Assembly (NCBI GenBank): GCA_937928555.1
Contig: CALFWR010000025.1
Span: forward strand, 1 to 64,000
Length of the DNA: 64,000 bases
Reading direction: 5' to 3'
From: an uncultured Pirellulaceae bacterium
GTDB lineage: Bacteria; Planctomycetota; Planctomycetia; Pirellulales; Pirellulaceae
A program made the translations under genes and the position numbers. This document shows positions 3,952-62,153 of the stretch, in pieces (position 1 is the first letter of the stretch; each line of letters opens with the position of its first letter). The notes under the pieces were generated by a model. That model saw only the letters and a program-made list of their open reading frames with translations, was not told where the DNA came from and did not search any database.

Positions 3952-4138
3952 CCCGGATTATTCACGAGGCGTGGGCGTTAGAATCAGTTCCGACCGTGAT
4001 CCGCGACGCTGATGCGATGAAACGATCGCTGTGGTTTTCATCTATCGGATGATTCAAACTTCTTGTTGAAATTCAGTTTTTCCCTTGCTCCTGTTGGCCA
4101 GACGTAGAATCAACGCCCGTCGTCGTGAATAATCCGGG
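3952..4138 (+). mobile_element. MITE-like element, copy 1 (full length, 187 bp)
   Basis: Begins CCCGGATTATTCACGA and ends with its exact reverse complement TCGTGAATAATCCGGG, a 16 bp terminal inverted repeat that continues imperfectly inward for about ten bases (GGCGTGGGCG against CGCCCGTCG). It is flanked by the 5 bp direct repeat TTTAG (3947-3951 and 4139-4143). The right-hand TTTAG contains the stop codon (4140-4142) of the minus-strand membrane-protein gene, so the insertion landed on the stop and regenerated it. No transposase inside. Confidence 0.9.
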
Positions 4139-4139
4139 T

Positions 4140-5336
4140 TTAGGGACTTTCCTTTTCGGCGTGGCTTTTGTCGATTGGAACGGTTTTCTGCTGGCGTCTC
4201 CCGTTGACCGGATGCGAGGGACCAAGTTCGCTGAGTTGCCAGTCGACTTGCGAGTAACGTTGGATCAATCCACGTGCGGCAGGGATTTGGAAACGGCTTT
4301 CGGGGTAGATCGGTGCTCCGAGTTGTTGGAGTGACCATTGGCCCAGGTAGAATCTGGCTGTTTGGCCAAAAGACCGTTCAGTACACAGACTCTGAAGGTT
4401 TTCCGGGAGGCGATCGATGTGTTGAGGCGGGAGTTCAAGCAGAGCCCGGGAGTTGCTTGGTGAGTACAACCCCCACGCCATCCAGTGGTCGCAAAGTCCA
4501 ATCGGTCGAAGTAAGGGAATTAAAAGCACGGCGATTGCGAACCAGCGGACGATGTTGAATTTGAAGCCAGGTTTCGATGCCGGAGGCGGTGGTACACGAT
4601 CCCAGAAAAGCCAAAACACCAGCAGGATTTGCATCGCGTTCCAGATTATGACCGGCGGATGATGCTGAAGCTTGAACAGCAGAGCGATCAGGCAGGTATG
4701 CATGACGATTGCAGCAACTGCGGTCACTTTTCGCGTTCTTGAAAACATCAAACCCAAGCCAATCAGCAATTCGCCGATCGGGAATAGCGCAACGACCTTG
4801 CGATGGTCCGCTGCGGGGTCGAGTTCCATTCCGATCATTGAACAGGCCGCAGCAAGGAAGTCTTTGCCGGTGGTTTGAGTGAATTGAAAATCGAATTTGC
4901 TGATAGCCGAAAACAGGTAGATCGAGATCAGAATGACGCCCATCCATTTTTTTGCATCGCCGCGCGGCATGCCCCACAGCAGGATGGCAAACACAAATGT
5001 CTGCCAGGCCCAGGCTTGCAGACAATGCTGGTTGCAGACGAAGGTTACCCCGAGGCCGACAAACAGAATCGCGAGAAACATGCTTTCGGATCGATTCCTG
5101 ACCGCAATTTCGCCAAGAGCACTAATGATCCCGATCGAGGCCAAGGTCTGGATCCAGACCAGCCACTTTGACGATTCAAAGACCAGCGGCACGCGGGGAA
5201 AATCGGTAAAGCCCGGGATCCAGAGTCGCCATGTCAACACAAACAGGCTGATGCATATCGAGGCCCACAGCGTCAGGCAGATTCGGTCTGTGCGAGACGC
5301 GCCGGGCCCGGGTTGAGTTACGGATTCTCCTTGCAC
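4140..5336 (-). CDS. Polytopic membrane protein, DoxX/HTTM-like
   Basis: 398 aa with about eight hydrophobic segments in the first 290 residues, for example ICISLFVLTWRLWI, FLAILFVGLGVTFV, WMGVILISIYLFSAISKF and ILLVFWLFW. The ISKFDFQF segment after a helix and the later LFPIGELLIGLGLMF segment resemble DoxX/HTTM and MauE-type membrane families. The last ~110 residues are soluble and end in a basic tail. No catalytic motif is evident. The stop codon sits inside the 5 bp target duplication of MITE copy 1. Function unknown; the family link is tentative. Confidence 0.7.
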   Translation of the reverse strand: MQGESVTQPGPGASRTDRICLTLWASICISLFVLTWRLWIPGFTDFPRVPLVFESSKWLVWIQTLASIGIISALGEIAVRNRSESMFLAILFVGLGVTFVCNQHCLQAWAWQTFVFAILLWGMPRGDAKKWMGVILISIYLFSAISKFDFQFTQTTGKDFLAAACSMIGMELDPAADHRKVVALFPIGELLIGLGLMFSRTRKVTAVAAIVMHTCLIALLFKLQHHPPVIIWNAMQILLVFWLFWDRVPPPPASKPGFKFNIVRWFAIAVLLIPLLRPIGLCDHWMAWGLYSPSNSRALLELPPQHIDRLPENLQSLCTERSFGQTARFYLGQWSLQQLGAPIYPESRFQIPAARGLIQRYSQVDWQLSELGPSHPVNGRRQQKTVPIDKSHAEKESP

Positions 5337-5514
5337 TGCACTCTCCGACCAAATGCGGTGGACCCGTGATCCACCAGCGATGTGCCAAAGTTGAATTTTG
5401 GGACGTCGAAAGGGACGACCCCTGTGGGCGTAAACCGGCGAAAACCGAACCCTTCAACGTCCGGTTCGCCAAAGCGGGTTACCACGAGGTCGGGAAGTCC
5501 GCTGCGCAATCGGC

Positions 5515-6420
5515 TTACTTGGTCACCAGACTTTTCAGATGCCCCATGCTCTGTCCGATGCTTGCCAGTGCGTCGGAAGACTGATCCTGTTCGACGTGGC
5601 AGAACTCGGCGCCAATTTCTTCGGACACGGCGAGGACTTTTTGCATGTCGATTGATCCGTCACCGAGTTCTTCAAAGCAATCGTGCGGCACTTTGCCTTC
5701 GTCGTGGCTGACAGCGGCGCCGTTTTTGAGGTCTTTCAGGTGAACTTGCGTGACGCGGCCGTCCAGTTTTCTGAGCGTCTCAAACGGATCCCAGCCACCG
5801 ATCTTTGCCCAGAACACGTCCAGTTCAAACTTGCACATGTCGTCGTCAAATTCATTCATCAGCACGTCAAAGCCGGTTGTTTCGCCATCGATCTTGGCGA
5901 ACTCGAAAGAGTGATTGTGATAACAAAGCTTGATCCCGGCATCGTTGCACATCTTGCCAAACTCGTTGGCTTTGGTGGCGCAGTTTTTCATCAGTTCCAC
6001 GGTTTCGCGTGAGCCCTTGCCGATGTAGCCAAAAACGAGGTGCTTGAGCCCGAACTCGGAGGCTTTCTTGACGATGTCTTTTCGTTTGGGAGCATTGTCG
6101 CGTTGATGAACGACCGAATTCCAGTCAACGAAGGACGAGTTCACACCGAGTCCAAGTTTTTTGGCTTGTTTGACGATATCGTCAGACCCAACGCATCGCA
6201 TCAATTCGATTTGTTTGTAGCCCGCGTCGTGAACCGCTTTGAGCGTCGTCGCGTAGTCTTCCTTTTTCTCGAGATGTTTGCGAACGGTCCACAACTGCAA
6301 ACCGATCGTGTCCATGTATTTCGAAGCTTTGTTCTTTTCTTGCATCGCCATCAGTGGTCTGGCAAGGGAGAGGGTCAATCCGGTGGCCGTTGTGCCGGCG
6401 AGAAAGTTACGACGTTGCAT
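5515..6420 (-). CDS. Tat-exported sugar phosphate isomerase/epimerase-like TIM barrel
   Basis: 301 aa. The N-terminus MQRRNFLAGTTATGLTLSLA is a twin-arginine signal, so the mature protein should act in the periplasm. The body has xylose-isomerase-like TIM-barrel segments: IGLQLWTVRKHL, LCYHNHSFEF (metal-binding His region), MCKFELDVFWAKIGG (Glu and Asp), VTQVHLKDLKNG and EFCHVEQDQSS. Enzymes of this type isomerise, epimerise or dehydrate sugars using a divalent metal, and Planctomycetes carry many exported paralogs. Exact substrate not determinable. The gene stands alone, with the nearest minus-strand gene 84 bases upstream. Confidence 0.85.
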   Translation of the reverse strand: MQRRNFLAGTTATGLTLSLARPLMAMQEKNKASKYMDTIGLQLWTVRKHLEKKEDYATTLKAVHDAGYKQIELMRCVGSDDIVKQAKKLGLGVNSSFVDWNSVVHQRDNAPKRKDIVKKASEFGLKHLVFGYIGKGSRETVELMKNCATKANEFGKMCNDAGIKLCYHNHSFEFAKIDGETTGFDVLMNEFDDDMCKFELDVFWAKIGGWDPFETLRKLDGRVTQVHLKDLKNGAAVSHDEGKVPHDCFEELGDGSIDMQKVLAVSEEIGAEFCHVEQDQSSDALASIGQSMGHLKSLVTK

Positions 6421-6504
6421 GGTTCGGAAGGCTCCGTTTTGAAGACAGGTTGCACGCCCGAAATTATAGCCACGGTTTGTGTTTGGTGTGACGTCGTCCC
6501 CGAT

Positions 6505-6708
6505 TCAATCGGTTTTTTTCGGGACAGCGTTGCGGACGACTTCTTCGGCTGGCAATAGTCGACCGGAATCTGATTCGAAGATCAACCGAGAGTTTTCCGG
6601 GTGTTTGACATGGTTTTCGAATCTGCCGATCAAGCCGTCTAGGTCCACAATGCAGCCACTGGAACCGCGTATCTTTTCCACTAGGTTGACCAGTTGTTGT
6701 TCGTTCAT
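6505..6708 (-). CDS. Small hypothetical protein
   Basis: 67 aa starting MNEQQLVNLVEKIRGSSGCI and ending VRNAVPKKTD. It is soluble and acidic, with a predicted helix at the start and no known motif. Composition fits the surrounding genes and it fills the gap between two confident genes, but no family is recognised. It lies about 180 bases upstream of, and divergent from, the Cys/Met enzyme. A chance ORF cannot be excluded. Confidence 0.5.
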   Translation of the reverse strand: MNEQQLVNLVEKIRGSSGCIVDLDGLIGRFENHVKHPENSRLIFESDSGRLLPAEEVVRNAVPKKTD

Positions 6709-6891
6709 GTCGTGGCTTTTGGTTCTTGTTCTGTGGAGAAAGTAAAGTAGACTCTGGCGTAGGGATTTGATGCCGCTTGCAGCCTTTATCTGCTAAAGAG
6801 CAACTCGACCGTGCCTCCGGTGGGCCAGTCGATCATTCTATGTCAACTCGCTTGTTGGCATCACGTCCAGTTCTGTATGGAGTGTTAAGGA

Positions 6892-8130
6892 ATGTCAACA
6901 GTGTCTGGAAACAAATCAGGTCGACTTTCGACGCGTGCCGCAAAATCAACATCTGACAAGCCCCAAGGGATTTCGACGCTTGCCGTACACGCCGGAGAAG
7001 CAAGACAAAAAGCCCTTAATTCGATCACCGATCCGATCGTGATGGCGTCCACATTCACGTTCGAGAACACGCAGTCGATCATCGACTACATCGAACAGGA
7101 CCAGGAGCGTGGCGAGTACGGTCGCTATGGCGTGCCTGGCGAAAGGGTGGTCGAGAAAAAGATTGCTGCCCTCGAAGGTGCCGAGGAAGGCGTGCTGTTC
7201 AGTACCGGCATGGCCGCGTTTGTCGGGTTGCTCAATACGCGACTGAAGAGCGGCGATGAGATTGTGTTCTTTGACGAGTGTTACCATCGCTCCCGCGACT
7301 ACTGCCGAAGCTGGCTGTCGCGTTACGGGGTTGTGACCCGCGAGGTCAAAATGGGTGACTACGGGGCGATGGAGGCCGCCATCAATGACAATACCCGTTT
7401 GCTGGTGAGCGAATCACCGACCAATCCGCATTTGAGCATTGTGGACCTGGAACGTTTTGCAGCGATTGGAAAAAAGTACGACGTCGAAACAATCATCGAT
7501 GCCACGATTGCGACGCCCTACAATCTTCAGCCAATTTCGTATGGTGTTGATTACGTGATGCATAGTGCGACCAAATACATGAGTGGTCACAACGACCTGC
7601 TGGCAGGCATCGTGCTGGGGAGCAAGGAAAAACTGGACGAAGTCCGCAAGCTTCGTGGCATCATGGGGTCGATCAATACGCCGCACAACTGCTTTTTGCT
7701 TGAACGCGGGCTGAAAACGTTTGAGCTGAGAATGCAGCGGCACAATGAAAACGGTTTGGCGGTCGCGAGGTACCTGGAAAGTCATCCGCGAGTCGAACGT
7801 GTTTTGTACCCCGGGCTCGAATCGCATCCCTACCACGAGGTGGCGCGTTCGACGATGCGGGGCTTTGGCGGGTTGGTGACGTTTGAGGTCAAAGACGCCG
7901 ACTGGAAGCAAACCGCTGCGATTGTGGATGCCGCCAAGCTGGCTCGAATCGCGCCAAGCCTTGGCGGAGTGGAGACCTTGATCGAACAGCCGCTGGTGAT
8001 GAGCTACTTTGAGCGAACGCCGGAGCAGCGGGCCGAGTTCGGGATTACCGACAACATGATTCGCCTGGCCTGCGGCATCGAAAACGCTGAAGATATCATC
8101 GCAGACCTGAGCCAGTGTCTTGAGGCGTAG
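6892..8130 (+). CDS. Cys/Met-metabolism PLP enzyme (cystathionine gamma-synthase/beta-lyase family)
   Basis: 412 aa. The PLP-binding motif HSATKYMSGH places the Schiff-base lysine at residue 228. Other family marks are GRYGVPGERVVEKKIAALEGAE, FSTGMAAFVGLL, SESPTNPHL, IIDATIATPYN (the cofactor Asp) and a C-terminal LGGVETLIEQP. The family makes or cleaves cystathionine, or eliminates thiols from methionine or homocysteine. Residues distinguishing synthase from lyase cannot be read with certainty, so no gene symbol is given. The ~40-residue N-terminal extension looks disordered and the true start may be internal. Confidence 0.88.
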   Translation: MSTVSGNKSGRLSTRAAKSTSDKPQGISTLAVHAGEARQKALNSITDPIVMASTFTFENTQSIIDYIEQDQERGEYGRYGVPGERVVEKKIAALEGAEEGVLFSTGMAAFVGLLNTRLKSGDEIVFFDECYHRSRDYCRSWLSRYGVVTREVKMGDYGAMEAAINDNTRLLVSESPTNPHLSIVDLERFAAIGKKYDVETIIDATIATPYNLQPISYGVDYVMHSATKYMSGHNDLLAGIVLGSKEKLDEVRKLRGIMGSINTPHNCFLLERGLKTFELRMQRHNENGLAVARYLESHPRVERVLYPGLESHPYHEVARSTMRGFGGLVTFEVKDADWKQTAAIVDAAKLARIAPSLGGVETLIEQPLVMSYFERTPEQRAEFGITDNMIRLACGIENAEDIIADLSQCLEA

Positions 8131-8162
8131 GGGGCGTAGGGAGCGAATCGGCGCGAGAAGCC

Positions 8163-8192
8163 CGTGAGCCAACGCGCTCGGGGGCCGGCGCG
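8163..8192 (+). repeat. Degenerate GTGAGCC intergenic repeat
   Basis: Contains CGTGAGCCAACGCGCTCGG between the stops of two convergent genes. It is a weak match to the GTGAGCCGYTGGCCG palindromic family seen better at 17.66, 48.17 and 59.39 kb. Confidence 0.35.
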
Positions 8193-8209
8193 TGGCTGGT
8201 TGGGAGGCT

Positions 8210-9529
8210 CTAATTCAAATCCGGAATGACGATTTCAACGCCGCCGGGAATGTTGGTGATCCCGTCCAGAACCCTTCGATTGGCTTTGTAAAGTTCGATG
8301 TAGCGATCTGGAGTCCCGTAGAACTTTTGCGAAATCGATTGCAGGCGATCACCGGGTTGAATTCGGTAAGTCCGCTGCTGTTGTTGGTTTTGCAGCGGGG
8401 CAAAATTGGAACGCGATTGGGTGTTTGTATTCCAACGCTGCGGCGGTTGCTGAGTTTCAGGTTGAGGTGGATCGGCCCGTGGCTTGGGAGGGGCTTGCCA
8501 GTTCGTTTCGAAATCGTGGGGAGTTCGGACGGTTTCGCGTCCCGAAGAGAATCGCCGGCCAGGATCGTCCCGGTCCAAGCTTTTGCGAAGTTCGGCAAAG
8601 CTTGGTGCAGAGACTGATTGTGGGTAGTGGTTGGCCTGCTGGCCAGGCAGCGGCGGGTCCGCGAATTGAGCGGGCTCGGATGCTCTGGGCGTTTCGGGAA
8701 ACTGAGCCTGGTACGGGGCCGCTTGCAAAGGAGGTTCCGTGACCGAAGTCACACTCTGCGCGGCAGCCCCGTCCCGGAACTCAACTGTTTCGTCACGAAG
8801 GTAGTCTGCTGATTTCTGATTGTAAATGTCGTCGATGGTCTGCGGCTGATCGTTGCGGTAGCCGGGACGACTGACCCGCCATTGTCCTTTGACCGACGAA
8901 AACGTATCGCCTGATTGCGGTTTTTGTTTTGGGAAACGATCGCCGACAAAGCCGTTCGCCGGGGTGTCGTTTGCAAACGAACCGATTCCGGTCTGGTTGA
9001 AGCGATCGCGTTGATCGATGACTCGCCGGATGGAAACGGTTTGCTTTGGTTGCCGAATGACAAGTTGCGGGGGCGTCGCATTGAGGAGCTTCGGTGGCTG
9101 GCTGTTTGATTGTCCATTTGTCAGGTTGTTGCCCGTTCCGAGTTCAAGCGGCGAGTTGCGAAACCGCGCAGCGAGTTCGGAAAAGTCCGGTGTGACGGAT
9201 TTCGTCTGGGGGCCTTGGGGTCGGGCTGTGACAGGGTTTTGGCTTGAAGAACGGTCGGCAGGCACGCTTTGGGCTGATGTGACCTGCTGCGAAAGCGGTA
9301 TAAGTTCCGCAGAGGGAGGCGCGAATTGGGGCGTTGCGGGCGCGGGCTGAGCCGCAGGCTGGGCCTGTCCGCCGGCCAAAAACGATTCGATTGGGTCGAC
9401 GTTTTGAACTTGATGCGGCTGGTCAATTTCCGCCGGGCGGTTGTGGATGTAGCGTCCAAACAAGAACGCTGCCGCGAGGCACGTTAGACCCATCAAAACC
9501 TGTTGCAAGGAATTCATACTCATACCCAT
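8210..9529 (-). CDS. Membrane-anchored LysM-domain protein
   Basis: 439 aa. An N-terminal hydrophobic segment (MNSLQQVLMGLTCLAAAFLF) anchors the protein. Residues ~40-380 are low-complexity, rich in Pro, Gln and Ser, and probably disordered. The last ~55 residues form one LysM domain: YRIQPGDRLQSISQKFYG, then RYIELYKANRRVLDG and PGGVEIVIPDLN. LysM binds GlcNAc-containing glycans such as peptidoglycan, so an envelope role is likely; no enzymatic domain is visible. Convergent with the Cys/Met enzyme. The start could also be at the second or third Met. Confidence 0.85.
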   Translation of the reverse strand: MGMSMNSLQQVLMGLTCLAAAFLFGRYIHNRPAEIDQPHQVQNVDPIESFLAGGQAQPAAQPAPATPQFAPPSAELIPLSQQVTSAQSVPADRSSSQNPVTARPQGPQTKSVTPDFSELAARFRNSPLELGTGNNLTNGQSNSQPPKLLNATPPQLVIRQPKQTVSIRRVIDQRDRFNQTGIGSFANDTPANGFVGDRFPKQKPQSGDTFSSVKGQWRVSRPGYRNDQPQTIDDIYNQKSADYLRDETVEFRDGAAAQSVTSVTEPPLQAAPYQAQFPETPRASEPAQFADPPLPGQQANHYPQSVSAPSFAELRKSLDRDDPGRRFSSGRETVRTPHDFETNWQAPPKPRADPPQPETQQPPQRWNTNTQSRSNFAPLQNQQQQRTYRIQPGDRLQSISQKFYGTPDRYIELYKANRRVLDGITNIPGGVEIVIPDLN

Positions 9530-10038
9530 GGATTGCCCAGGCAGCTTTGGTCATCAAGTGCTGGGGGACCGAAAAACGAGCCAATCCATGGCCGGCGAAA
9601 GTATCCTTTGACTCCAAGAAGTGGTAACCACTCCCGAAGGCGTCGAAGTATTGCACCGCGTGCAGAGGCAGTACGCGGTTTTGGGCACAAAGGATCGCAG
9701 TGGATCAAAAAAATATCTGGTTGTTAGTGTCAGTGAATGCTTGCAGGCAAATGATCAGCAGAAGATCGGAATAACTGGAGAGGTTTGACAGCTCGACCTG
9801 TTCAGATGCTGGCGAAGTATGCGGGACGTGTCGGAACATTTGGGTGCCGCAGGGTTTTGATAGACCCAAAATTGGCCGCTGGTTCAACATGTTCACCGAT
9901 TCAACGAAAGAAGGAGGCACCAAGCCTCCTTCATGTTGGTTTCGAATTGTCAGGTGGCTTGGTCCTTGAAAGCTGAAGAACCTCGTTCTGCAACCAAGGT
10001 AACTTGCGGCCTTCAGCACTCTCAGCGCGCTCTCAGCG
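9530..10038. other. Intergenic stretch upstream of the LysM gene and downstream of secDF
   Basis: Apart from the hairpin at 9910-9932 I see no gene, tRNA or mobile element here. Several short frames are open but none has a convincing start or protein character. Confidence 0.5.
9910..9932 (-). terminator. Candidate terminator hairpin downstream of secDF
   Basis: A perfect 9 bp stem GAAGGAGGC/GCCTCCTTC with a 5-base loop, about 107 bases past the secDF stop. On the minus strand it is followed only by TTTCGTTG, a weak U-tract, so termination efficiency is uncertain. Confidence 0.5.
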
Positions 10039-13449: not shown

Positions 13450-13536
13450 TCGATTGTTTCTGTTTTGGGTTGGGTATTGGTTCAGCCGTGAGACGCAGAT
13501 GGTCCGGGCACGAATCTGTCGCAAGAGATGACGAAG

Positions 13537-15486: not shown

Positions 15487-15568
15487 TTTGCTCAGCTTAC
15501 CGTTTGAGCGGCGGCTTCAGTAGCCGTCAGGCCCGCTGGAATCGGGTTCAGCACAGAAGTTGCAAAGC

Positions 15569-15595
15569 GAAAAAAAGCCGACTCTCGGAGTCGGC
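15569..15595 (-). terminator. Intrinsic terminator for the PEP-CTERM gene, now displaced
   Basis: On the minus strand GCCGACTC-CGA-GAGTCGGC is followed by seven T. It lies downstream of the minus-strand PEP-CTERM gene ending at 15816, with MITE copy 2 inserted between the stop codon and this hairpin. It is upstream of tgt, so it should also insulate tgt from read-through. Confidence 0.8.
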
Positions 15596-15605: not shown

Positions 15606-15791
15606 CCCGGATTATTTACGAGGCGTGGGCGTCAGAATCAGTTGAGACAGTGATCCGCGACTCTGATGCGATCAAACGATCGCGTGGTTTTCATCTACCG
15701 GGTGATTTTCATTTCTCGTTAAAGTTCAGCTTTTCCCTTGCTCCTGTCGGCCAGGCGTAGAATCAACGCCCGTCGTCGTGAACAATCCGGG
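15606..15791 (+). mobile_element. MITE-like element, copy 2 (full length, 186 bp)
   Basis: Same orientation as copy 1, with ends CCCGGATTATTTACGA and TTGTTCACGACG as read in from the right; each end has one substitution from the consensus. It is flanked by a perfect 5 bp duplication TTCAT (15601-15605 and 15792-15796), different from that of copy 1. It lies 24 bases downstream of the PEP-CTERM stop codon and upstream of that gene's terminator. Confidence 0.9.
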
Positions 15792-25026: not shown

Positions 25027-25255
25027 CCATTGAGCTTATCGCGAAATCAATTCTGGAACAGGACTGTAGGGGCACTGAGGTACGGTTTGGGTGAGTTTTG
25101 GCAAAGCAGATGTTGCTGGCGGACCTGTGAGCCAAGACGCGTAAGCGGCCGGGTGGCGTCGGAGATAGTGCGGCGATTTTTGGAAGGTTGGGGGCGGGCA
25201 GAGGTGCAAGGGGTTGGCAGAGGACGTCACGATTCAGCCCCGAGGGCCTCACGGT

Positions 25256-25359
25256 GAATCATCCGGAAGATGAAAACCACAGCGATCGTTTCATCGCATC
25301 AGAGTCGCGGATCACTGTCTCAACTGATTCTGACGCCCACGCCTCGTGAATAATCCGGG
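25256..25359 (-). mobile_element. MITE-like element, copy 3 (truncated, ~104 bp)
   Basis: Reverse orientation relative to copy 1. Only the half ending CCTCGTGAATAATCCGGG is present; similarity begins at ATCATCCGGAAGATGAAAACC and the other terminal repeat is missing, so no target duplication can be found. Its intact end lies inside the comF reading frame and provides that gene's last codons and stop. Confidence 0.85.
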
Positions 25360-26136
25360 CTCAAGATCGGAATCCTGGTAGTTGCCCGTTGCTCTGCCCG
25401 CCACCGCAGAATTAACCTGGGCTGCGCCTGCCTTTTTGAGAATCTTCGCCAGTTCGCTGATCGTCGCTCCGGAGGTCATCACGTCGTCAATGATGACAAT
25501 GTTGGCTCCATCGACTCGTGTAAGTGATTTGAGGCCAAAAGAGTTTTTCACATTCTCGAATCGTTTGTGGCCGGTGAGCTTTCCCTGCTTTTGAGTCAAC
25601 CGCTTGCAGGACAACAGGTTGTTTTGGACGGGAATTCGAAGCACCGAGGCGGCACCTTCGGCGATCACGTGCGATGCGTGGAAGCCACGTTTAAGTCTTC
25701 GCCACCAGTGGATCGGGACGGGCACGAGCATGTCGGCTGTTTTGGCAAAGCCACTGTGGCTCAATCGGTGGCCCAGCATGCGGCCGATATGCAATGCGAG
25801 GACTTCGTCCATGTCGCGTTTGGTACGCAAAATCAGAAGCTTGAGCAAGCCCCGATAGCTTCCCACCGACACGTTGCGACCAAAATGCAGCCGGCTGTCG
25901 AAGCACAACGCACAGCGGTCGCCGAATGTAACAGGCCGTTTGATGTAGCTGCCACACTTTGGGCAGCCATCGTTACGATGGTTAGGCAGGGCTTTCCAGC
26001 AGGGGCCACAAAACTGTTGACCAAACTCGGAATCGACGTTGCTGTCGGTCGCGACGATGCGCGATTCGCACCCCAAGCAGGTCGCCGGATAAATCAGCGA
26101 AACGAGCGAATGTCCACATTTGGCGTAAGGGATCAA
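25312..26136 (-). CDS. comF: ComF-family phosphoribosyltransferase with a MITE-derived tail
   Basis: 274 aa. The N-terminal zinc-ribbon-like cysteines (CLGCES, CGPCW, CPKCGS, CALC) are followed by a type I phosphoribosyltransferase domain with VPVPIHWWRRLKRGFHASHVIAEG and the PRPP loop VIIDDVMTSGATI. ComFC-type proteins take part in DNA uptake or single-stranded DNA handling after natural transformation. The last 16 residues, EPGLFTRRGRQNQLRQ, are read from MITE copy 3, which also gives the stop; the native protein probably ended near SAVAGRATG. Other competence genes are absent here. Confidence 0.88.
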   Translation of the reverse strand: MIPYAKCGHSLVSLIYPATCLGCESRIVATDSNVDSEFGQQFCGPCWKALPNHRNDGCPKCGSYIKRPVTFGDRCALCFDSRLHFGRNVSVGSYRGLLKLLILRTKRDMDEVLALHIGRMLGHRLSHSGFAKTADMLVPVPIHWWRRLKRGFHASHVIAEGAASVLRIPVQNNLLSCKRLTQKQGKLTGHKRFENVKNSFGLKSLTRVDGANIVIIDDVMTSGATISELAKILKKAGAAQVNSAVAGRATGNYQDSDLEPGLFTRRGRQNQLRQ

Positions 26137-26304: not shown

Positions 26305-26327
26305 CCCGGATTATGAACGTGAACGCC
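26305..26327 (+). mobile_element. Isolated MITE-like end upstream of the LptF/G gene
   Basis: CCCGGATTATGAACGTGAAC shares the terminal CCCGGATTAT of the MITE family and a nearby ACG, then diverges. Preceded by TTTAT. A facing end lies at 27,599-27,608, followed by TTCAT (4 of 5 match). Together they bracket the LptF/G gene. Confidence 0.4.
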
Positions 26328-35558: not shown

Positions 35559-35745
35559 CCCGGATTATTCACGAGGCGTGGGCGTCAGAATCAGTTGAGA
35601 CAGTGATCCGCGACTCAGATGCGATGAAACGATCGCTGTGGTTTTCATCTACCGGATGATTTACATTTCTTGTTGAAATTCAGCGTTTCCCTTGCTCCTG
35701 TTGGCCAAGCGTAGAATCAACGCCCGTCGTCGTGAATAATCCGGG
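35559..35745 (+). mobile_element. MITE-like element, copy 4 (full length, 187 bp)
   Basis: Perfect 16 bp inverted ends CCCGGATTATTCACGA / TCGTGAATAATCCGGG with a perfect flanking duplication CTCAT (35554-35558 and 35746-35750). Same orientation as copies 1 and 2. An internal inverted repeat GATGAAA/TTTCATC could form a hairpin. It sits between the kinase terminator and the HEAT lipoprotein gene. Confidence 0.92.
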
Positions 35746-51426: not shown

Positions 51427-51467
51427 AGGACCGGATTGAGCAGCCGCAGTCTCCGGAACGACACACG

Positions 51468-53078: not shown

Positions 53079-53128
53079 CAAACTAGGTGCTAATATTCGC
53101 TTGGCAATCGAAAAACGTTAACTGCCAG

Positions 53129-53163
53129 CGTGGGTAGCGGGTTTCGCCAGAATTCCCGGCTAC
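53129..53163. repeat. Intergenic palindrome GGTAGCGGG...CCCGGCTACC
   Basis: GGTAGCGGG and CCCGGCTACC are separated by TTTCGCCAGAATT and can pair with one bulged G. It lies between the ABC permease and the DUF1570 gene. It may be a terminator-like or dispersed palindromic unit; a distant look-alike lies near 14.3 kb. Confidence 0.5.
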
Positions 53164-53269
53164 CAAAAGACTACGACAGCAGTTGTTTCGCCGATGCGTG
53201 GTCGGGTTGGTTTGAATTGACGTTTTCGCCACCGACACAATAGCAAAAACCAAACGGGGCAAGAGTTGG

Positions 53270-54460: not shown

Positions 54461-54483
54461 TTTCACACCTCTTGTTGGGATCG

Positions 54484-55182: not shown

Positions 55183-55220
55183 CCACAACGCCACGACAAT
55201 AGAACCGATCACAAAGTGAT

Positions 55221-55405
55221 CCCGGATTATTCACGACGACGGGCGCTAATTCTACGTCTGGTCAACAAGAGCAAAGGAAAAGCTGAAATTCAACAAAGAG
55301 GAAATCATCGGGTAGATGAAAACCACAGCGATCGTTTCATCGTGTCTGAGTCGCGGATCATTGTCGGAACTGATTCTGACGCCCACGCCTCGTGAACAAT
55401 CCGGG
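55221..55405 (-). mobile_element. MITE-like element, copy 5 (full length, 185 bp)
   Basis: Reverse orientation relative to copy 1: starts CCCGGATTATTCACGACGAC and ends CGAGGCGTGGGCG as read in from its right end, with one substitution in the last repeat (GTGAACAATCCGGG). Flanks GTGAT (55216-55220) and CTGAT (55406-55410) match at four of five bases. It lies just downstream of the GDPD-like gene. Confidence 0.88.
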
Positions 55406-55458
55406 CTGATAAACAAAAAAAGCGCACGTATACCACACCGCACAGCAGTTACTCCGAG

Positions 55459-55917
55459 TTACTCCGAGTCGTCAGTCGCGAACTTGCCTTCTGCAAACAC
55501 AACCTCGCCGTCCAGTTGGACTTCCAAATGCAAACTTACAAACGGATGCAGAAACGGCAACCTCGTCCGGATCCTCAGAAAATGAACCGGGTGATCCCCC
55601 ATCAGATCCAGCACCGCGATCATCGTGTCGTCTTCTGGGATCCAGCGAGCGGTCGATTTGATAACCGACGACGCGCCATCGATTTTGATGCCCGAGGGCG
55701 CGACGACCAAAATGGCATCGAATCGCCCGCTAATCTTCAGCACGCGGCGCGAGAGTATCAGCCATTCGGTCCATTGAGTAAAACCGTTTTGCCTGAGAAG
55801 CTCGACCTTCAAATCGCGGCCAGTGTCGATTTGTTTGCGAATCGAATTCTCGATTTCCCTAGCCGGTTCAGCGGCGGGAGTTCGAAAAGCGTCTTCCACA
55901 GAAGCCTGATTTACCAT
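55459..55917 (-). CDS. Hypothetical protein
   Basis: 152 aa from the ATG at 55917 (a GTG at 55956 is an alternative). No signal peptide. The C-terminal half contains LEVQLDGEVVFAEG and FLRIRTRLPFLHPFVSLHL, suggesting a beta-sheet domain, but no family is recognised. Composition resembles the neighbours and it has its own unit between convergent GDPD-like and divergent Gfo/Idh/MocA genes. Likely real. Confidence 0.6.
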   Translation of the reverse strand: MVNQASVEDAFRTPAAEPAREIENSIRKQIDTGRDLKVELLRQNGFTQWTEWLILSRRVLKISGRFDAILVVAPSGIKIDGASSVIKSTARWIPEDDTMIAVLDLMGDHPVHFLRIRTRLPFLHPFVSLHLEVQLDGEVVFAEGKFATDDSE

Positions 55918-56021
55918 TTTGAATCCGCAAAAGAAGACAGTGGTCCACGCGATCACTTGTGGTACGGCGGCAACCGGGTCACACTTATGGAACTTCCGCA
56001 GTCCATTATTGCAGATAAATC

Positions 56022-57311
56022 ATGGCCGACAAACCGAAGCAACCCACCAAGCCTTCCCGTCGCAAGTTTTTGGCGACTGGAACAACCGCTGCAGGGGCTG
56101 TAACGCTGGGAACTTTTGCCAGCCCCGCACTGGGCTTTCACGCCAGCGTCGACGACACTTTGAAAGTCGGCCTGATCGGCTGCGGTGGTCGCGGCACCGG
56201 AGCGGTCCAAGATATTCTCGAAGCGGACTCGCGAGCCAAAGTCACCGCTCTTGCCGATGCCTTCATTGATCGCGTCAATATCACCAAAGACATTCTTCAA
56301 ACCGATGTCGCGGACAAGTACGCGGTTGCGGAGGAAAATATCTTTACCGGTATCAGCTGCCACGAGGAAATCGTCAAAACGGATATCGACGTGGTCCTGC
56401 TGGCCACGCCACCGCACTTTCGCCCGGCACAAATGGAAGCCGCCGTGCGAGCGGGCAAGCATGTGTTCTGCGAGAAACCCGTTGCTGTCGATGTCCCCGG
56501 AGCCAAACGTGTGCTCGCTGCCTGTGAAGAAGCCGAATCCAAAGGACTCAGCGTTGTCTCGGGGTTGTGCTGGCGATATGACACAGCGGTCAACGAAGTC
56601 ATCGACAGAGTCCTTGGTGGCGACATTGGAGAGATTGTTTCGATCGAATCCAACTACCTCACTGGCACCCTCTGGCATCGCATCCCCAAGCCCGATCAAG
56701 TCTGGTCGCCGCTGGAACAGCAGCTTCGCAACTGGCTGTACTACAACTGGCTAAGCGGCGACCACATCACCGAACAGCACATCCATTCGATCGACAAAGT
56801 CGCGTGGCTTTACGGTGACACTCCTCCTGAATCCTGTTACGGCGTCGGAGGCCGATTGGCACGCACCGAAAAAAAGTGGGGCAACGTCTACGATCACTTT
56901 ACGACGGTGTATCAATGGGCCGACGGCAGAAAAGCATTTTGTCATTGCCGGCAGATGGATCATTGCTTTAACCAGACCGATGATTTTGCCTACGGTACCG
57001 AAGGAGTCGCCGGGATCCTGTCTCGCAAGATCGAAAACGGTGCCGGGACATGGTCCACCAAACGGACCAGTAATCGCATGTATGTCAACGAGCACATCAA
57101 ACTGACACAAAGCATCCGTGGTGACGGGCCGATCAACAACGGACACTATATGGTGAACAGTACTTTGATGGCGTTGTTTGGGCGCGATGCGGCGTACTCT
57201 GGCAAAAAACTCGAATGGGACCAGTTCATGCAATCCGAAGTCGTGCTTGGCCCCGAATCCTGGGCGGACCAAGATTATGTTCCCGATCCGGTTGCCATCC
57301 CAGGCCGCTAG
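56022..57311 (+). CDS. Tat-exported Gfo/Idh/MocA-family oxidoreductase
   Basis: 429 aa. A twin-arginine signal SRRKFLATGTTAAGAVTLG precedes the Rossmann motif VGLIGCGGRGTGAVQDIL (about residues 47-64), then VLLATPPHFRP, HVFCEKPVAVDVPGAK and GLCWRYDTAVNEVIDRV. The family oxidises or reduces sugars or inositols with NAD(P). An exported form is typical in Planctomycetes, where the cofactor is probably bound before export. Sits 59 bases upstream of the tryptophan dioxygenase frame on the same strand; the substrate is unknown. Confidence 0.92.
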   Translation: MADKPKQPTKPSRRKFLATGTTAAGAVTLGTFASPALGFHASVDDTLKVGLIGCGGRGTGAVQDILEADSRAKVTALADAFIDRVNITKDILQTDVADKYAVAEENIFTGISCHEEIVKTDIDVVLLATPPHFRPAQMEAAVRAGKHVFCEKPVAVDVPGAKRVLAACEEAESKGLSVVSGLCWRYDTAVNEVIDRVLGGDIGEIVSIESNYLTGTLWHRIPKPDQVWSPLEQQLRNWLYYNWLSGDHITEQHIHSIDKVAWLYGDTPPESCYGVGGRLARTEKKWGNVYDHFTTVYQWADGRKAFCHCRQMDHCFNQTDDFAYGTEGVAGILSRKIENGAGTWSTKRTSNRMYVNEHIKLTQSIRGDGPINNGHYMVNSTLMALFGRDAAYSGKKLEWDQFMQSEVVLGPESWADQDYVPDPVAIPGR

Positions 57312-57384
57312 AGCGTTCCCTTTCGCAAAAATGCATTTTCAATCATCGCCGCATTTTCTGCACCTTTAATTGCCTGTTGCTGAT

Positions 57385-58485
57385 ATGCCTCAACCCGGTT
57401 CCGTTTACTATCGCGAGTACCTTCGGCTGGACAAAATCCTCGAAGCCCAGGAACTCGAAAGCGCGAAACACGGAAAGCCTGCTCATGACGAGATGCTTTT
57501 CATCATCACGCACCAAACCTACGAACTGTGGTTCAAGCAGATCGTGTTTGAACTCGAAGCCATCATCGACATCCTTGACGATCCCGTCGTGCAGGACAAA
57601 AAGATCGGTCGGGTGCTGCACATGCTGGCCCGGATTACAAAGATCCAGCGGATCCTGATCGAACAGATCGAAGTCATCGAAACCATCACGCCCCTGGACT
57701 TTCTCGAATTTCGTGACTTGCTGGTGCCCGCGTCGGGTTTTCAGAGCATCATGTTCAAGCAGATCGAAATCCTGATGGGGATCCGCAAAGAGAATCGCAT
57801 CGCCGCCGATTGCGAATTCTTCAAAACGCGGCTTTCCTTTTCCGACCAGGCACTCCTGGAAGAAGTCGAAGAACGCACCAACCTGCTGGAGTTGGTTGAC
57901 CGCTGGCTGACCAAGGGCCCCTTTGATCGCTTCGAAGGATTCACGTTCTGGAAAATGTATCGTGATGCTGTGGACAAAATGTTCAAGTCCGATGAAGACA
58001 TCATCCGCTCCAACCGCACACTCACCGATCGGGAAAAAGACTCCCAGGTCGAAGAGATGCTCAAGACGCGAGACCGATTTGACAGCCTGCTGGACAAAGA
58101 CAAATTCGAGTGCCGACGAGCCCAGGGCGAGTTTCGACTTTCGCATTCGGGATTTCTTGCGGCCCTGTTTATCCATCTTTATCGCGACGAACCGCTGCTG
58201 TACACCGCTTTCCGTTTGCTGACCCTGCTGGCAGACGTGGATGGCCTGTTTACCCGTTGGCGGCAACGTCACATGGTGATGGTGCAGCGGATGCTGGGAA
58301 CCAAAATCGGCACCGGTGGATCTTCCGGCCAGGACTACCTGAGCCAGACGACCAACCAGAATCGGGTCTTTCTGGATCTGTTCAACATCTCCACGTTTCT
58401 GATCCCGCGCGAAGACCTTCCGCCGCTTCCGGCGAACGTCCGCCGTGAACTGGGATTCTTTTTTCGCGGCCCCGACGCCAGTTGA
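57385..58485 (+). CDS. kynA: Tryptophan 2,3-dioxygenase
   Basis: 366 aa from the ATG at 57385, longer than the ~280-residue proteobacterial enzyme and closer to animal TDO in size. The haem enzyme opens the tryptophan indole ring to N-formylkynurenine. Typical are YREYLRLDKILEAQ, HDEMLFIITHQTYELWFKQI (active-site His), RFRDLL-like FLEFRDLLVPASGFQS, and the C-terminal GTGGSSGQDYL loop. With the kynurenine 3-monooxygenase 1 kb away it points to the kynurenine route; kynurenine formamidase, kynureninase and 3-HAA dioxygenase are not in the window. Confidence 0.93.
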   Translation: MPQPGSVYYREYLRLDKILEAQELESAKHGKPAHDEMLFIITHQTYELWFKQIVFELEAIIDILDDPVVQDKKIGRVLHMLARITKIQRILIEQIEVIETITPLDFLEFRDLLVPASGFQSIMFKQIEILMGIRKENRIAADCEFFKTRLSFSDQALLEEVEERTNLLELVDRWLTKGPFDRFEGFTFWKMYRDAVDKMFKSDEDIIRSNRTLTDREKDSQVEEMLKTRDRFDSLLDKDKFECRRAQGEFRLSHSGFLAALFIHLYRDEPLLYTAFRLLTLLADVDGLFTRWRQRHMVMVQRMLGTKIGTGGSSGQDYLSQTTNQNRVFLDLFNISTFLIPREDLPPLPANVRRELGFFFRGPDAS

Positions 58486-58618
58486 TTCAGCGACGGCAAA
58501 CCGCAGGAAATCGCCCCGGTTTGCGGCTGTGTCCTAAAAACCGTTGTACAAGCGCGTTCGCCCAATTACGATCAAGCCTTCCCAACGAACACAAATTCTG
58601 TTTTTGAATCGAGAAAGA

Positions 58619-59299
58619 ATGAACATCAAAAAAGGAACTTTTTGGACGCTGCTGATTGCTGCAACGACCATCATGGCGGCTTCTGCTGAAGCTCAAATTC
58701 GGCAGACCTATCCGCAGCAGAGAGCTTACGGTTCAGCCACTCGCCAGGTCGTTCCTCAAGTTCAGACGCCTTCGTACCAGAATGTAACGCTCAGCAAAGA
58801 GCAGATGGCCCAGTCGACGCTTGGCGCGTCTTTCGCTGACTCGGCAGCAGGGGTTGTCGTACGGTCTGTCTTCACCAACAGTCCCGCCCACAAAGCCGGC
58901 CTCAACACTGGCGACGTCATCAGCAAGCTCAACGGCAACGCCGTCCCCAACGCGGCGTCAATGGGCGCCGCGATAAACGGCATGTCCGAGGGCGATGTCA
59001 TCAAACTCACTCGCAGGAACAGTGTTGGCAAAGTTGCCGATGTCGATTGCAGTGTTTCGACGATGGGCGCTGTCCTCAAAGCCAGCAACGTTCCTGAAGC
59101 AGGTGTCTACGGTCCGGCGATCGCCCAAGCTCAGGTGACTTTGAAAAAGATGGAAGTCGACATCCGCAATGCGACTCAGGAACTCGAAGCGATGAAAAAG
59201 CAGTATGCGGATCTTCAGAAAAGAACTGGTGAGCTCAAGATGAAAGCGGAAGAAGTCCGCAAGCAGGAACAAGCTAGGAAAGCTGAAGAAAAGAATTGA
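58619..59299 (+). CDS. Secreted PDZ-domain protein with C-terminal coiled coil
   Basis: 226 aa from the ATG at 58619, which opens a Sec signal (GTFWTLLIAATTIMAASAEA). A single PDZ domain is at about residues 62-145: LGASFADSAAGVVVRSVFTNS, AHKAGLNTGDVISKLNGNAV, GDVIKLTRR. The last ~55 residues are a charged helix (TQELEAMKKQYADLQKRTGEL). No protease domain is attached, so it is likely a periplasmic adaptor. A clear terminator follows. Confidence 0.85.
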   Translation: MNIKKGTFWTLLIAATTIMAASAEAQIRQTYPQQRAYGSATRQVVPQVQTPSYQNVTLSKEQMAQSTLGASFADSAAGVVVRSVFTNSPAHKAGLNTGDVISKLNGNAVPNAASMGAAINGMSEGDVIKLTRRNSVGKVADVDCSVSTMGAVLKASNVPEAGVYGPAIAQAQVTLKKMEVDIRNATQELEAMKKQYADLQKRTGELKMKAEEVRKQEQARKAEEKN

Positions 59300-59330
59300 T
59301 TCAGATCGTCATTCGATCACGAATTCGATG

Positions 59331-59374
59331 TCCCGATGCAGAACCCCTCGTGGTTTTGAATCGGGATTTTTTTT
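59331..59374 (+). terminator. Intrinsic terminator of the PDZ gene
   Basis: Stem TCCCGAT/ATCGGGA with inner AACC/GGTT pairing, then eight T, about 32 bases past the stop codon. Confidence 0.85.
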
Positions 59375-59390
59375 GGCGACGTGAGACTTC

Positions 59391-59444
59391 CCCGTGAGCC
59401 GCTGGCCTCACGGCGCGCCAAAACCCGACGCCTCACAGCGCGCC
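59391..59444 (+). repeat. GTGAGCCG palindromic intergenic repeat
   Basis: CCCGTGAGCCGCTGGCCTCA followed by CGGCGCGCC and a second CCTCACAGCGCGCC. Between the convergent PDZ and kmo genes. Same family as at 17.66 and 48.17 kb. Confidence 0.6.
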
Positions 59445-59458
59445 ACCGACGGCACAAC

Positions 59459-60823
59459 TCAACCCGAAACGGGAACCAGTCGCTCCCGCAACAACTTCGC
59501 GGCCAGCGAATAGTCCATCTGCTCAATTGAATCGATATCCTGCGTCAGGTCATCTAAGATCTTTCTCTGAATCACACCCAACTGCTTTGCTTTGGCGTAG
59601 GGAATCGTGTGAAACATCACGCGCGAGTATCGCGGAATGAAAAGCTCCGGATAGCGGCGTTCCAACTCGAAACCGACTTCTTTTTTCAAGTGGTACTTGG
59701 GATCGATCACACCCTGTTGCATCATCTCGTGGTTTTCAATCGCCATGTCCGCGATCGCTTCGGCGTTGGGTTTTCGAATTCGACTAAAGTCCTCGAGGGT
59801 TTTGGCCCAGTCCTCGTTGTTTTCGTCCAGCAGTCGTACCAGCTCGCTGCAATCTTCGAACCCCGAGTTCATTCCCTGCCCATGAAAGGGCACGATCGCG
59901 TGAGCGGCATCCCCCACGATCAATCCACAATCAGAATAATGAAACGGCGAGCATCGAATCGTGCCCAGCCGACCGGTCGGATGTTCGAAAAAGTCTTCCA
60001 GCAGGTCGGGCATCAACTTCATCGCGCTGGCAAAGTGTGCCTCAAAAAACTCGACCAGTTTCTCGCGGTTGGTCAGCGTTGCGAAACTGGGCTCTCCGGT
60101 CTTTGGCAAAAACAGAGTCACGGTGAAGCTGCCGCCAGGGTTTGGCAGCGCAATCAGCATAAATCTGCCGCGTGGCCAGATGTGCAGCGCTTCCTTTTCG
60201 ATTTCCCAGTCACCATTTTTTGACGCTGGAATCTCAAGCTCTTTGTAGTCGTGCTCCAGGAAAGTCGACTTGCTCTGACCGCCGGTTGCTTCGACCAGTT
60301 CGCGGCGAACCCGCGACCCCGCGCCGTCGGCTCCGATGACCAAATCAAACGCATGCGAATTGCTGCTTCCGTCGGCAGATTCAAAGACCGCTTTGCGGTT
60401 CGCAAAATCAACCGAAGTGCATTTCTGTTCAAACACAACATCGACCGCGTCGGCCAACAGGGCCTCGTTGACCAACAGTCTGTTTAACCCGTCGCGAGGC
60501 ACCGAGTAGTTGACTTCATGGTCGCGTTGGCCGTAGGGGGAAAAACGTTGACCTCCGTCTGCGGTGTGCAGCATGCGTCCACGCATCGGTATCAGCAGCG
60601 GTTTCACTTTGTTGTACAACCCCGCAGACTTTAGGGCGTGGATCCCTCGCGAGCACAAGGCAAGGTTAATCGAACGCCCGGAATCTTCGGCAACCTTACG
60701 CCCGTCTTTGCGGCGTTCAAACAGGCGGATCGAATAGCCGCGTTGGCCAAGCATGACGCCCAGCAAGGACCCGACCAAACCTGCACCCACGATGACAATA
60801 TTTTTGTCAGACCGGTTCTTCAA
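59459..60823 (-). CDS. kmo: Kynurenine 3-monooxygenase
   Basis: 454 aa. FAD enzyme that hydroxylates kynurenine to 3-hydroxykynurenine with NADPH and O2. It has NIVIVGAGLVGSLLGVML (FAD Rossmann), GRSINLALCSRGIHALKSAG, VIGADGAGSRVRRELV, and CGLIVGDAAHAIVPFHGQGMNSGFEDC, a combination specific to KMO among flavin hydroxylases. The C-terminus carries no obvious membrane anchor. Its 140-base upstream region holds a promoter-like pair, a mini-ORF and a terminator hairpin, all on the same strand. Confidence 0.93.
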   Translation of the reverse strand: MKNRSDKNIVIVGAGLVGSLLGVMLGQRGYSIRLFERRKDGRKVAEDSGRSINLALCSRGIHALKSAGLYNKVKPLLIPMRGRMLHTADGGQRFSPYGQRDHEVNYSVPRDGLNRLLVNEALLADAVDVVFEQKCTSVDFANRKAVFESADGSSNSHAFDLVIGADGAGSRVRRELVEATGGQSKSTFLEHDYKELEIPASKNGDWEIEKEALHIWPRGRFMLIALPNPGGSFTVTLFLPKTGEPSFATLTNREKLVEFFEAHFASAMKLMPDLLEDFFEHPTGRLGTIRCSPFHYSDCGLIVGDAAHAIVPFHGQGMNSGFEDCSELVRLLDENNEDWAKTLEDFSRIRKPNAEAIADMAIENHEMMQQGVIDPKYHLKKEVGFELERRYPELFIPRYSRVMFHTIPYAKAKQLGVIQRKILDDLTQDIDSIEQMDYSLAAKLLRERLVPVSG

Positions 60824-60854
60824 TTTCGAAACTCAACTACGATGATCTGCTTAA

Positions 60855-60965
60855 TTAGAACTTGAACGCCTGTTGAAGCGCATGAAAAAACCCCACCGAT
60901 TGCAAAGCAACACGGCGGGGCCGGAACAGAAAAGAGGCCGAATCGAAATAAGCCCGTTCCTTCAT
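60855..60965 (-). CDS. Putative 36-residue Phe-rich leader ORF upstream of kmo
   Basis: ATG at 60963-60965, TAA at 60855-60857. The peptide starts MKERAYFDSASFLF and ends ALQQAFKF; 7 of 36 residues are Phe. The terminator-like hairpin lies inside the frame. The ATG is only about three bases from the transcription start predicted from the upstream promoter. No ribosome site is visible. It may be a leader peptide or a chance ORF. Confidence 0.3.
   Translation of the reverse strand: MKERAYFDSASFLFRPRRVALQSVGFFHALQQAFKF
60885..60920 (-). terminator. Terminator-like hairpin in the kmo leader (possible attenuator)
   Basis: On the minus strand CCCCGCCG...CGGTGGGG, with inner TTGC/GCAA pairing, is followed by six T. 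It points toward kmo and sits 62 bases before its start codon; no minus-strand gene ends upstream (suhB is on the other strand). It would therefore stop transcription entering kmo. Confidence 0.7.
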
Positions 60966-60974
60966 GATGGCGAT

Positions 60975-61003
60975 ATGGTAGCACCCATCACCTGACGTTT
61001 CAA
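60975..61003 (-). promoter_or_regulatory. Candidate promoter for kmo
   Basis: Minus strand TTGAAA (61003-60998), 17-base spacer, TACCAT (60980-60975): five of six and four of six consensus bases at ideal spacing. It lies between kmo and the divergent suhB. Confidence 0.5.
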
Positions 61004-61032
61004 GCAATTAGTGCCCAACCAGTTTACTTTGC

Positions 61033-61842
61033 ATGACCATAAGTTTAGCTAATCCCGAGCTTCAGCCCTATCTCAACGCTGCGATTCATGCCGCAAAACT
61101 CGGCGGCGAGCAACTCCTTTCGCGGATGGGCAAGGTAAAGGTCAACGAAAAGAAGCCTCGTGACCTCGTCACCGAAGCCGACTTGGCGTCGCAAAAAGCG
61201 ATCGAGGATTACTTGCTGGGTGAGTTTCCCGAGCATCGTTTTTTGGGGGAGGAATCAGACGTCCACAACCTTGAGATCAATCAGGATGAAGTCTGCTGGA
61301 TCGTGGATCCGCTTGATGGAACGGTCAACTATGTCCATCAGCTGAATTCATTTTCGGTTTCGATCGCACTTCGACGCGGAGACGAAACGATTGTCGGCGT
61401 CGTCTACGATCCGGTTATCGATGAAATGTTCTGCGCCGCCAGAGGACAGGGAGCTTTTCTCAATGGCCAACCTGTCTGTCACTCGGACTGCACTGATTTG
61501 CACAAGGCGTTGGTTGTTTGCAGTTTTTCAAGCAGTGTCGATCGCCACCATCCGGAAGTCGAGAGGTTCCTGCGCGTACTGGGCCAGGCCGGCAGCATTC
61601 GCCGACTGGGTTCTGCGGCCCTGAACCTGTGCTTTGTCGCCTGCGGACGTTCGGACGCGTACTGGGCCACGGGTCTTAATTGCTGGGACGTTGCCGCCGG
61701 GATGTTGATTCTTGACGAAGCCGGCGGCGTTGCGAAAACGATTGAAGGAGGTGAAGTCGATTTGTTTGCGCCAAAATTCTGTGCCGCTGCCACAAACGAA
61801 ATGTTCTCGCAAATGCAGAAACTCCTGGACCTTGATATGTAA
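61033..61842 (+). CDS. suhB: Inositol-1-monophosphatase family phosphatase
   Basis: 269 aa. Metal-binding motifs are FLGEESDV (Glu), WIVDPLDGTVNYVHQ (the DPLDGT signature, about residue 95) and the C-terminal NCWDVAAGMLILDEAGG. Hydrolyses inositol monophosphate and related sugar phosphates; some homologs act in transcription antitermination or in NADP/PAP hydrolysis, so the substrate is not fixed. Family length is normal. Divergent from kmo. Confidence 0.9.
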   Translation: MTISLANPELQPYLNAAIHAAKLGGEQLLSRMGKVKVNEKKPRDLVTEADLASQKAIEDYLLGEFPEHRFLGEESDVHNLEINQDEVCWIVDPLDGTVNYVHQLNSFSVSIALRRGDETIVGVVYDPVIDEMFCAARGQGAFLNGQPVCHSDCTDLHKALVVCSFSSSVDRHHPEVERFLRVLGQAGSIRRLGSAALNLCFVACGRSDAYWATGLNCWDVAAGMLILDEAGGVAKTIEGGEVDLFAPKFCAAATNEMFSQMQKLLDLDM

Positions 61843-61874
61843 CGTGGCATGCGCTGGTCCAATGTGCACTCGCC

Positions 61875-62063
61875 GTGGATCCTCTTGTGGAGATCGCGCG
61901 TTTGGTCAGCAAATCTTCGCTTTCGGAATCGATCAAGGAAAAGTTGATCGCCTGTTTGCGTTTGATCCCGGATTATTCACGACGACGGGCGTTGATTCTA
62001 CGTCTGGCCAACCGCAGCAAGGGAAAAGCTGAATTTCATCGAGAATTGCGAATCATCCGATAG
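61875..62063 (+). CDS. Small ORF with its C-terminal half read from a MITE
   Basis: 62 codons from a GTG. The first ~33 residues (MDPLVEIARLVSKSSLSESI then KEKLIACLRLIPD) look like an amphipathic helix. The last ~29 residues (DYSRRRALILRLANRSKGKA onward) are the translation of MITE copy 6. It may be the remnant of a small gene disrupted by the element, or a chance frame. Confidence 0.35.
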   Translation: MDPLVEIARLVSKSSLSESIKEKLIACLRLIPDYSRRRALILRLANRSKGKAEFHRELRIIR

Positions 62064-62153
62064 ATGAAAACCACGGCGATCGTTTCATCGCATCAGAGTC
62101 GCAGATCACTGTCGCAACTGATTCTGACGCCCACGCCTCGTGAATAATCCGGA
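61967..62153 (-). mobile_element. MITE-like element, copy 6 (full length, 187 bp)
   Basis: Reverse orientation. Starts with the perfect CCCGGATTATTCACGA; the other end is CCTCGTGAATAATCCGGA, with the last base changed. Flanks are TTGAT and TTAAG, so no clear target duplication remains. It is about 125 bases downstream of suhB and probably an older insertion. Confidence 0.85.

Follow-up and report, generated by a model that had tools for sequence, protein, structure and literature searches.

An abundant family of miniature inverted-repeat elements with IS1380-type ends and 5-bp target duplications, restricted to one species of Pirellulaceae

Introduction

The window considered here, a stretch of 64,000 nucleotides from an uncultured Pirellulaceae bacterium (assembly GCA_937928555.1, contig CALFWR010000025.1, positions 1 to 64,000), carries six copies of a miniature inverted-repeat transposable element (MITE), five of them full and one truncated, and several hundred more copies are found in the rest of the draft genome. 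The elements make up a new and very abundant family. MITEs as a kind are already known; what is odd about this family is the stagger of its insertions, which leave target site duplications (TSDs) of 5 bp, while IS1380 elements of related bacteria that have the same 16-bp ends leave, in most cases, TSDs of 4 bp. The family is probably one of orphan (type II) MITEs, a class defined by the lack of an insertion sequence (IS) with the same ends in the genome (PMC3542288), moved by an IS1380-like transposase that has not come into view.

Results and Discussion

The element and its abundance

The consensus of the element is 187 bp, bounded by terminal inverted repeats (TIRs) of 16 bp. Its longest stop-to-stop stretch is 36 codons, too short for any sizeable reading frame, as the preliminary description, made from the window alone, had held. 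All six copies in the window were found where that description had placed them, with ends and flanks as it gave them. Three lie on the forward strand and have perfect duplications: 3952..4138 (187 bp, TTTAG/TTTAG), 15606..15791 (186 bp, TTCAT/TTCAT), and 35559..35745 (187 bp, CTCAT/CTCAT). Two full copies on the reverse strand have imperfect ones: 55221..55405 (185 bp), whose flanks GTGAT and CTGAT differ at one base, and 61967..62153 (187 bp), whose flanks TTGAT and TTAAG differ at two. The truncated copy, also on the reverse strand, retains element positions 1-106 and occupies about 25254..25359, its start having been put earlier at 25256. The 16-bp end, with at most three mismatches, matches the window 13 times, as against 0.52 expected, and two of the matches (2003 and 26305) do not belong to MITE copies.

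The window lies on contig C25 of a draft genome (G000) of 4,869,169 bp in 168 contigs, estimated to be 91% complete. A search of the whole genome, which the preliminary description had proposed, turned up several hundred copies. The 16-bp end with at most two mismatches occurs 672 + 653 times, compared with 1 + 0 for a reversed control, and the left 24-mer end with at most three mismatches occurs 331 + 346 = 677 times, compared with none for the control. Individual copies were read in a sample of 2,156,599 bases (44% of the draft), of which 2833 are N. (One contig of the draft, C12, 2833 bp in length, appears to consist of N throughout, a length equal to the N total of the sample.) The sample contains 198 full-length and 142 partial matches to the largest subfamily, A. 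Many of the partial matches are ends alone, which other subfamilies have too. Scaling from the sample, the whole genome may hold about 450 full copies of A.

Queries with the A and B subfamilies yielded 233 distinct full-length elements: 192 of A, 20 of B, 6 of C, 5 of D, 4 of E, and 6 others. The five consensuses are 186-188 bp long and differ widely in the middle, yet their left 27 bp are invariant, as are 25 bases at the right, only the last five being variable. The left end is exemplified by 3952..3978 (forward strand), in which the 16-bp TIR is followed by GGCGTGGGCGT, and the right end by 4111..4138 (forward strand), CAACGCCCGTCGTCGTGAATAATCCGGG, where the invariant 25 bp end with AATAAT. 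A fixed length and fixed ends around a drifting middle suggest a constraint imposed by the transposition machinery. Shorter elements exist as well, the smallest of which, at 36 and 39 bp, are flanked by the exact duplications TTGAG and TTGAA.

Evidence for transposition

Among the 194 full A copies for which both flanks are available, 106 have an exact 5-bp TSD, whereas mismatched pairings of flanks give an exact match in only 637 of 37442 cases (1.7%). The flanks of the remaining copies differ at one base (31 copies), two (21), three (20), four (14), or five (2). The second position of the 106 exact duplications is T in 103 and the fourth is A in 101, and the target of A is therefore NTNAN. 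The same preference holds for B and its kin, with exact TSDs in 16 of 41 copies, T at position 2 in 16/16 and A at position 4 in 15/16. By subfamily, exact duplications flank 106/192 elements of A, 9/20 of B, 3/6 of C, 0/5 of D, 3/4 of E, and 0/6 of the others, to which a shift of the boundary by one base would add nine in A, two in B, one in D, and one among the others. The share of exact duplications falls with divergence from the consensus, from 73% (11/15) among the copies closest to it to 44% in each of the two classes farthest from it, which matches the prediction that duplications decay after insertion. The 16-bp inverted-repeat ends and 5-bp duplications first seen in the window are borne out beyond it.

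Empty sites point the same way. Six of the 194 A copies are nested within elements of the family, the hosts being three other A copies, two B elements, and one E element. All six have exact TSDs, and when each is removed together with one TSD, a host element is restored that aligns over its full length at 85-96% identity. Similarly, a RidA-like gene on contig C14 is split by an A copy; the joined gene matches PF01042 at 101.7 bits, as against 34.4 for the interrupted one. These empty sites are internal ones, rebuilt in scripts within a single genome. None of the 41 non-A copies lies within a family element, compared with the A rate of 6/194, numbers too few to date the subfamilies and no strong sign of their order.

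The duplications and clean internal empty sites confirm the earlier view that the repeats mark real transposition and not a shared structural RNA. A conserved RNA or regulatory element present at many loci does draw something from the folding of the copy at 35559..35745, which is better than that of shuffled sequences on both strands (z of -3.6 and -4.3). However, the inverted repeats themselves make up much of the fold, two-sided changes between the five consensuses affect just 3 of 46 pairs, and the window has no Rfam match at the gathering threshold. Nested insertions are moreover precise, and nearly all congeners lack the element. The idea is very improbable, and the internal hairpin was likewise rejected as a selected RNA, given the little covariation at those 3 of 46 pairs.

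One might also think of repetitive extragenic palindromic (REP) sequences, short palindromes without target duplications that are moved by cognate Y1 transposases (REP-associated tyrosine transposases, RAYTs). The repeats are indeed mostly intergenic and fold well, and open reading frames (ORFs) that we take to be RAYT-like occur near related, IS1380-type ends in two genomes, in L296 and at L033:1635-2534, the latter without a Pfam match. But long TIRs and exact target duplications are not expected of Y1 transposition, both are observed here, and 187 bp far exceeds the length of a REP. There is scarcely any likelihood that REP-like movement accounts for the family.

Location relative to genes

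Genes were called by a home-made codon-model caller in the 44% sample, from which A had been left out. Only 20 of the 194 A insertions fall within called genes, compared with 71.8% of 5000 random NTNAN sites, and 5 of the 20 are over 60 bp away from an end. This scarcity fits the removal of harmful insertions by selection. In gaps between tandem genes, the MITE has the same orientation in 55 cases and the opposite in 37, no strong signal.

Distribution among relatives

The MITE family is restricted to one species. Of 40 genomes searched with the 187-bp query, two match, namely its own and that of a congener (G015), the latter over 25-29 bp only. Likewise, among 241 genomes of the bacterial family the left 24-mer occurs 677 times in its own and five times in G015, and in none of the other 239. 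The short elements of G015 have the same subterminal part, but the three pairs checked are all without a TSD, and the sole match of that genome to PF13701, the IS1380-type transposase family, falls below the cut-off. Viral contigs contain no exact match to a 23-mer of the element.

The 16-bp end alone, with at most two mismatches, is far more widespread. At least one match occurs in 181 of 199 genomes, mostly a few per genome, with counts of 204 for G138, 186 for G173, and 90 for G195. Four genomes of other genera (G138, G173, G195, and G141) have about 80 to 200 similar ends each. Outside the MITE's genome, 25 end pairs among the loci listed could be read: 14 have a 4-bp TSD, two a 5-bp TSD, and nine neither.

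The short elements of other genera (for example L130, L131, L281, L284, and L291; 112-224 bp, 14 pairs) resemble the MITE in form and in their ends. Two of them share its 5-bp NTNAN duplications: CTAAG in G080 (L284:420-593) and CTCAG in G138 (L291:1354-1516). Unlike the MITE, however, the short elements have another subterminal sequence and fewer end matches per genome, and eight of the 14 pairs have a 4-bp TSD (CTAG, CTAA, or TTAG in seven), the remaining four having neither length.

The case for an IS1380-like transposase

Matches to PF13701 occur in eight of ten end-rich genomes searched, G195 and G161 having none. An element of G076 (L137) encodes a transposase matching at 331.8 bits, carries CCCGGATTATTCACGA at both ends, and is flanked by CTAG duplications. 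The ends of the MITE agree with both of its ends at 16/16 bases. A search with the G076 transposase led to five loci, four in Planctomycetes bacterium CA13 and one in Stieleria sedimenti, also of the Pirellulaceae, a result that hints at this bacterial family for the window without proving it. Elements L302-L305 of these two organisms carry CCCGGATTATTCACGA ends with 0-2 mismatches per end, and their transposases are 58-84% identical to that of L137. Together with L137 they have the ends in common with the MITE, but they differ from it in being about 1.68 kb long, in encoding a transposase, and in their duplications (CTAG, TTAG, or CTAA), and no likeness to the MITE was seen beyond the ends. 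The preliminary description's guess of IS1380 is plausible, though short of proof. The IS with the same ends that it proposed to look for exists in relatives (G076, CA13, and Stieleria sedimenti), with duplications that are mostly 4 bp and in no pair 5 bp, and none with these ends was found in what was searched of the MITE's own genome.

Several results weigh against an IS1380-like driver. Among the eight pairs of ends belonging to same-ended IS1380 elements (L302-L306, L137, L139, and L151; the left flank of L302 is partly masked, and L151 is a 538-bp deleted copy), six have a 4-bp TSD, none a 5-bp TSD, and two neither, and the count for the short elements of other genera leans the same way. 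The similarity between the MITE and the IS1380 elements, judged by eye, ends after about 17 bp at each end. In the MITE's own genome, no transposase with the same ends was found by searching the whole draft for PF13701 and PF01609 and the 44% sample for end pairs. The three PF13701 matches there (on C119, a fragment on C30, and one on C96 below the cut-off) do not qualify, and the ten end pairs of the sample that are spaced by 700-5000 bp all lack a TSD, nor does any of the longest frames listed for them look like a transposase. To this extent the autonomous element remains unseen, as the preliminary description had said, now after a search aimed at it.

The candidates set aside were as follows. 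The IS1380 copy on C119 has ends (C)CCTAGTCCTTAA, and the fragment on C30 has the end CCCGAATATTTCATC adjoining CTAG; neither matches the MITE. Nor do IS1380 elements of the genus, L164 and L165, whose ends are CCCGGATATTTCAT and CCCGGATATTGCAT adjoining CTAG. The single PF01609 match in the draft is an IS4-like gene on C96, the one that also gave the C96 match to PF13701, and it is itself interrupted by an A copy. An end-like sequence, CCCGGATTATTCATCA, lies about 140 bp beyond its stop codon, but ends of the type GAATGSCAY were seen in three relatives (L073, L077, and L078) out of six scanned, and GAATGGCACT lies between the stop and the end-like site, so that the site is probably outside the IS. 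Repeats of IS length present in multiple copies in the sample number 86, leaving out those that are mostly A; the longest is 975 bp, and 60 of the 86 are among those listed.

The 5-bp NTNAN duplications, and the failure to find a same-ended IS1380 transposase in the genome, could instead signify that a transposase of another DDE family moves the MITE, the likeness of its ends to IS1380 ends being due to chance or to distant descent. Against this stand the agreement of 16/16 bases at both ends of the G076 element, the similar core of the targets (T and A around the center), the coexistence in one bacterial family of short same-ended elements with 4-bp and 5-bp TSDs, and the setting aside of the IS4-like candidate on C96. 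A driver of another DDE family is therefore unlikely. An IS1380 driver is favored by the identity of the ends and by the two 5-bp elements found elsewhere, and the 4-bp duplications of the same-ended IS1380 elements speak for either a distinct lineage or a stagger that varies. A 5-bp duplication, TATGA, has been published for ISEcp1, a member of IS1380 (PMC2887853).

According to the model of an IS1380-like driver, then, a DDE transposase of this kind would be supplied in trans from an element outside the searched sequence, lost, unassembled, or foreign. It would recognize the CCCGGATTATTCACGA ends, probably together with the shared subterminal parts, and insertion at NTNAN sites would leave the 5-bp duplication. 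This species would have given rise to five or more subfamilies (A-E) that agree in length and in nearly all of their ends, and selection would have removed most insertions in genes, the intergenic copies remaining. A bolder version, which may be true but is tentative, is that an undescribed IS1380-related lineage with a 5-bp NTNAN stagger drove successive length-locked subfamilies to nearly 700 copies and then vanished or became hidden.

Age and activity

The preliminary description took the density of copies as a sign of recent or ongoing mobilization, and for recent movement there is partial support. Resolved A copies speak against the most recent activity: their median divergence from the consensus is 5.4%, and none of the 194 shares a 141-mer with another. 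Variation along A is uneven (3.0% in bases 1-20, 2.1% in 161-180, 4.2-9.1% in between, and 5.4% in the last seven), so that some of the divergence is probably older than the insertions. The ends of contigs tell another story. An A copy lies within 250 bp of 36 of 96 contig ends, compared with 5.2% of 5000 random windows, and of the 28 fragments at contig termini that measure 131 bp or more (a 26-bp fragment was dropped), 10 are matched by an identical copy at another place in the sample. Near-identical A copies therefore exist, and they probably break the assembly, so that the youngest copies would be hidden and the age of the resolved ones biased.

By the same token, the driver may be present and active on a contig that was not assembled or binned, the family still amplifying. 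This is a variant of the model of an IS1380-like driver, not exclusive of it, and is possible, if somewhat short of probable. It is favored by the state of the draft (91% complete, 168 contigs), by the excess of A near contig ends, and by the identical terminal fragments, and disfavored by the lack of a shared 141-mer among resolved copies and by the absence of an exact TSD from 88 of the 194.

Comparison with other systems and significance

Enterobacterial repetitive intergenic consensus (ERIC) and Correia elements are, like this MITE, high-copy nonautonomous repeats of bacteria, likened here by description and not by sequence. ERIC reaches 711 copies in Photorhabdus luminescens, the highest of the figures drawn on here, and Correia elements exceed 120 in Neisseria gonorrhoeae (PMC10969869). 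The load of the present family is near the top of the figures drawn from that 2024 review. The type II MITEs of Anabaena sp. 90, again likened by description only, also lack an IS with the same ends; that genome has 147 MITEs in all (PMC3542288). Among the titles and abstract openings listed for MITEs of planctomycetes and Pirellulaceae, none reports the family, which is weak evidence of its novelty.

As genomic parasites of a familiar kind go, the family is present in unusually high numbers, and it resides mostly between genes. If it was driven by an IS1380-related lineage with a 5-bp stagger, then it would be among the heaviest driverless MITE loads on record in bacteria. Hundreds of copies in one species, set against five related ends in 240 relatives, amount to a natural experiment in how a nonautonomous element amplifies in a bacterium, and also in the part played by conserved ends and by a length fixed at about 187 bp. 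Since equal ends are found with 4-bp and 5-bp TSDs, the stagger of IS1380-type transposition becomes directly testable. And since repeats break short-read assemblies, such loads may be under-reported.

Other observations

The truncated copy in the window abuts an ORF on the reverse strand (25312-26136), presumably ComF-like, with the Pfam domains DZR_2 and Pribosyltran (phosphoribosyltransferase). The end of the ORF runs into the copy and terminates about 16 codons inside it, so the truncated MITE seems to supply the last residues and the stop. Nearby, at 26305-26320, CCCGGATTATGAACGT resembles the end with three mismatches and has neither a partner within 420 bp nor a MITE interior. The A copy that breaks the IS4-like gene on C96 (L034:2275) is near the end of the contig. 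Finally, an A copy at C16:97327 is 489 bp long because it holds some 300 bp of inserted sequence bounded by AGGGTGTAATCTCGCTG...CAGCGAGACTACACCCT; the insert is a different repeat, of which a second copy, 90% identical, lies at C16:66115-66406.

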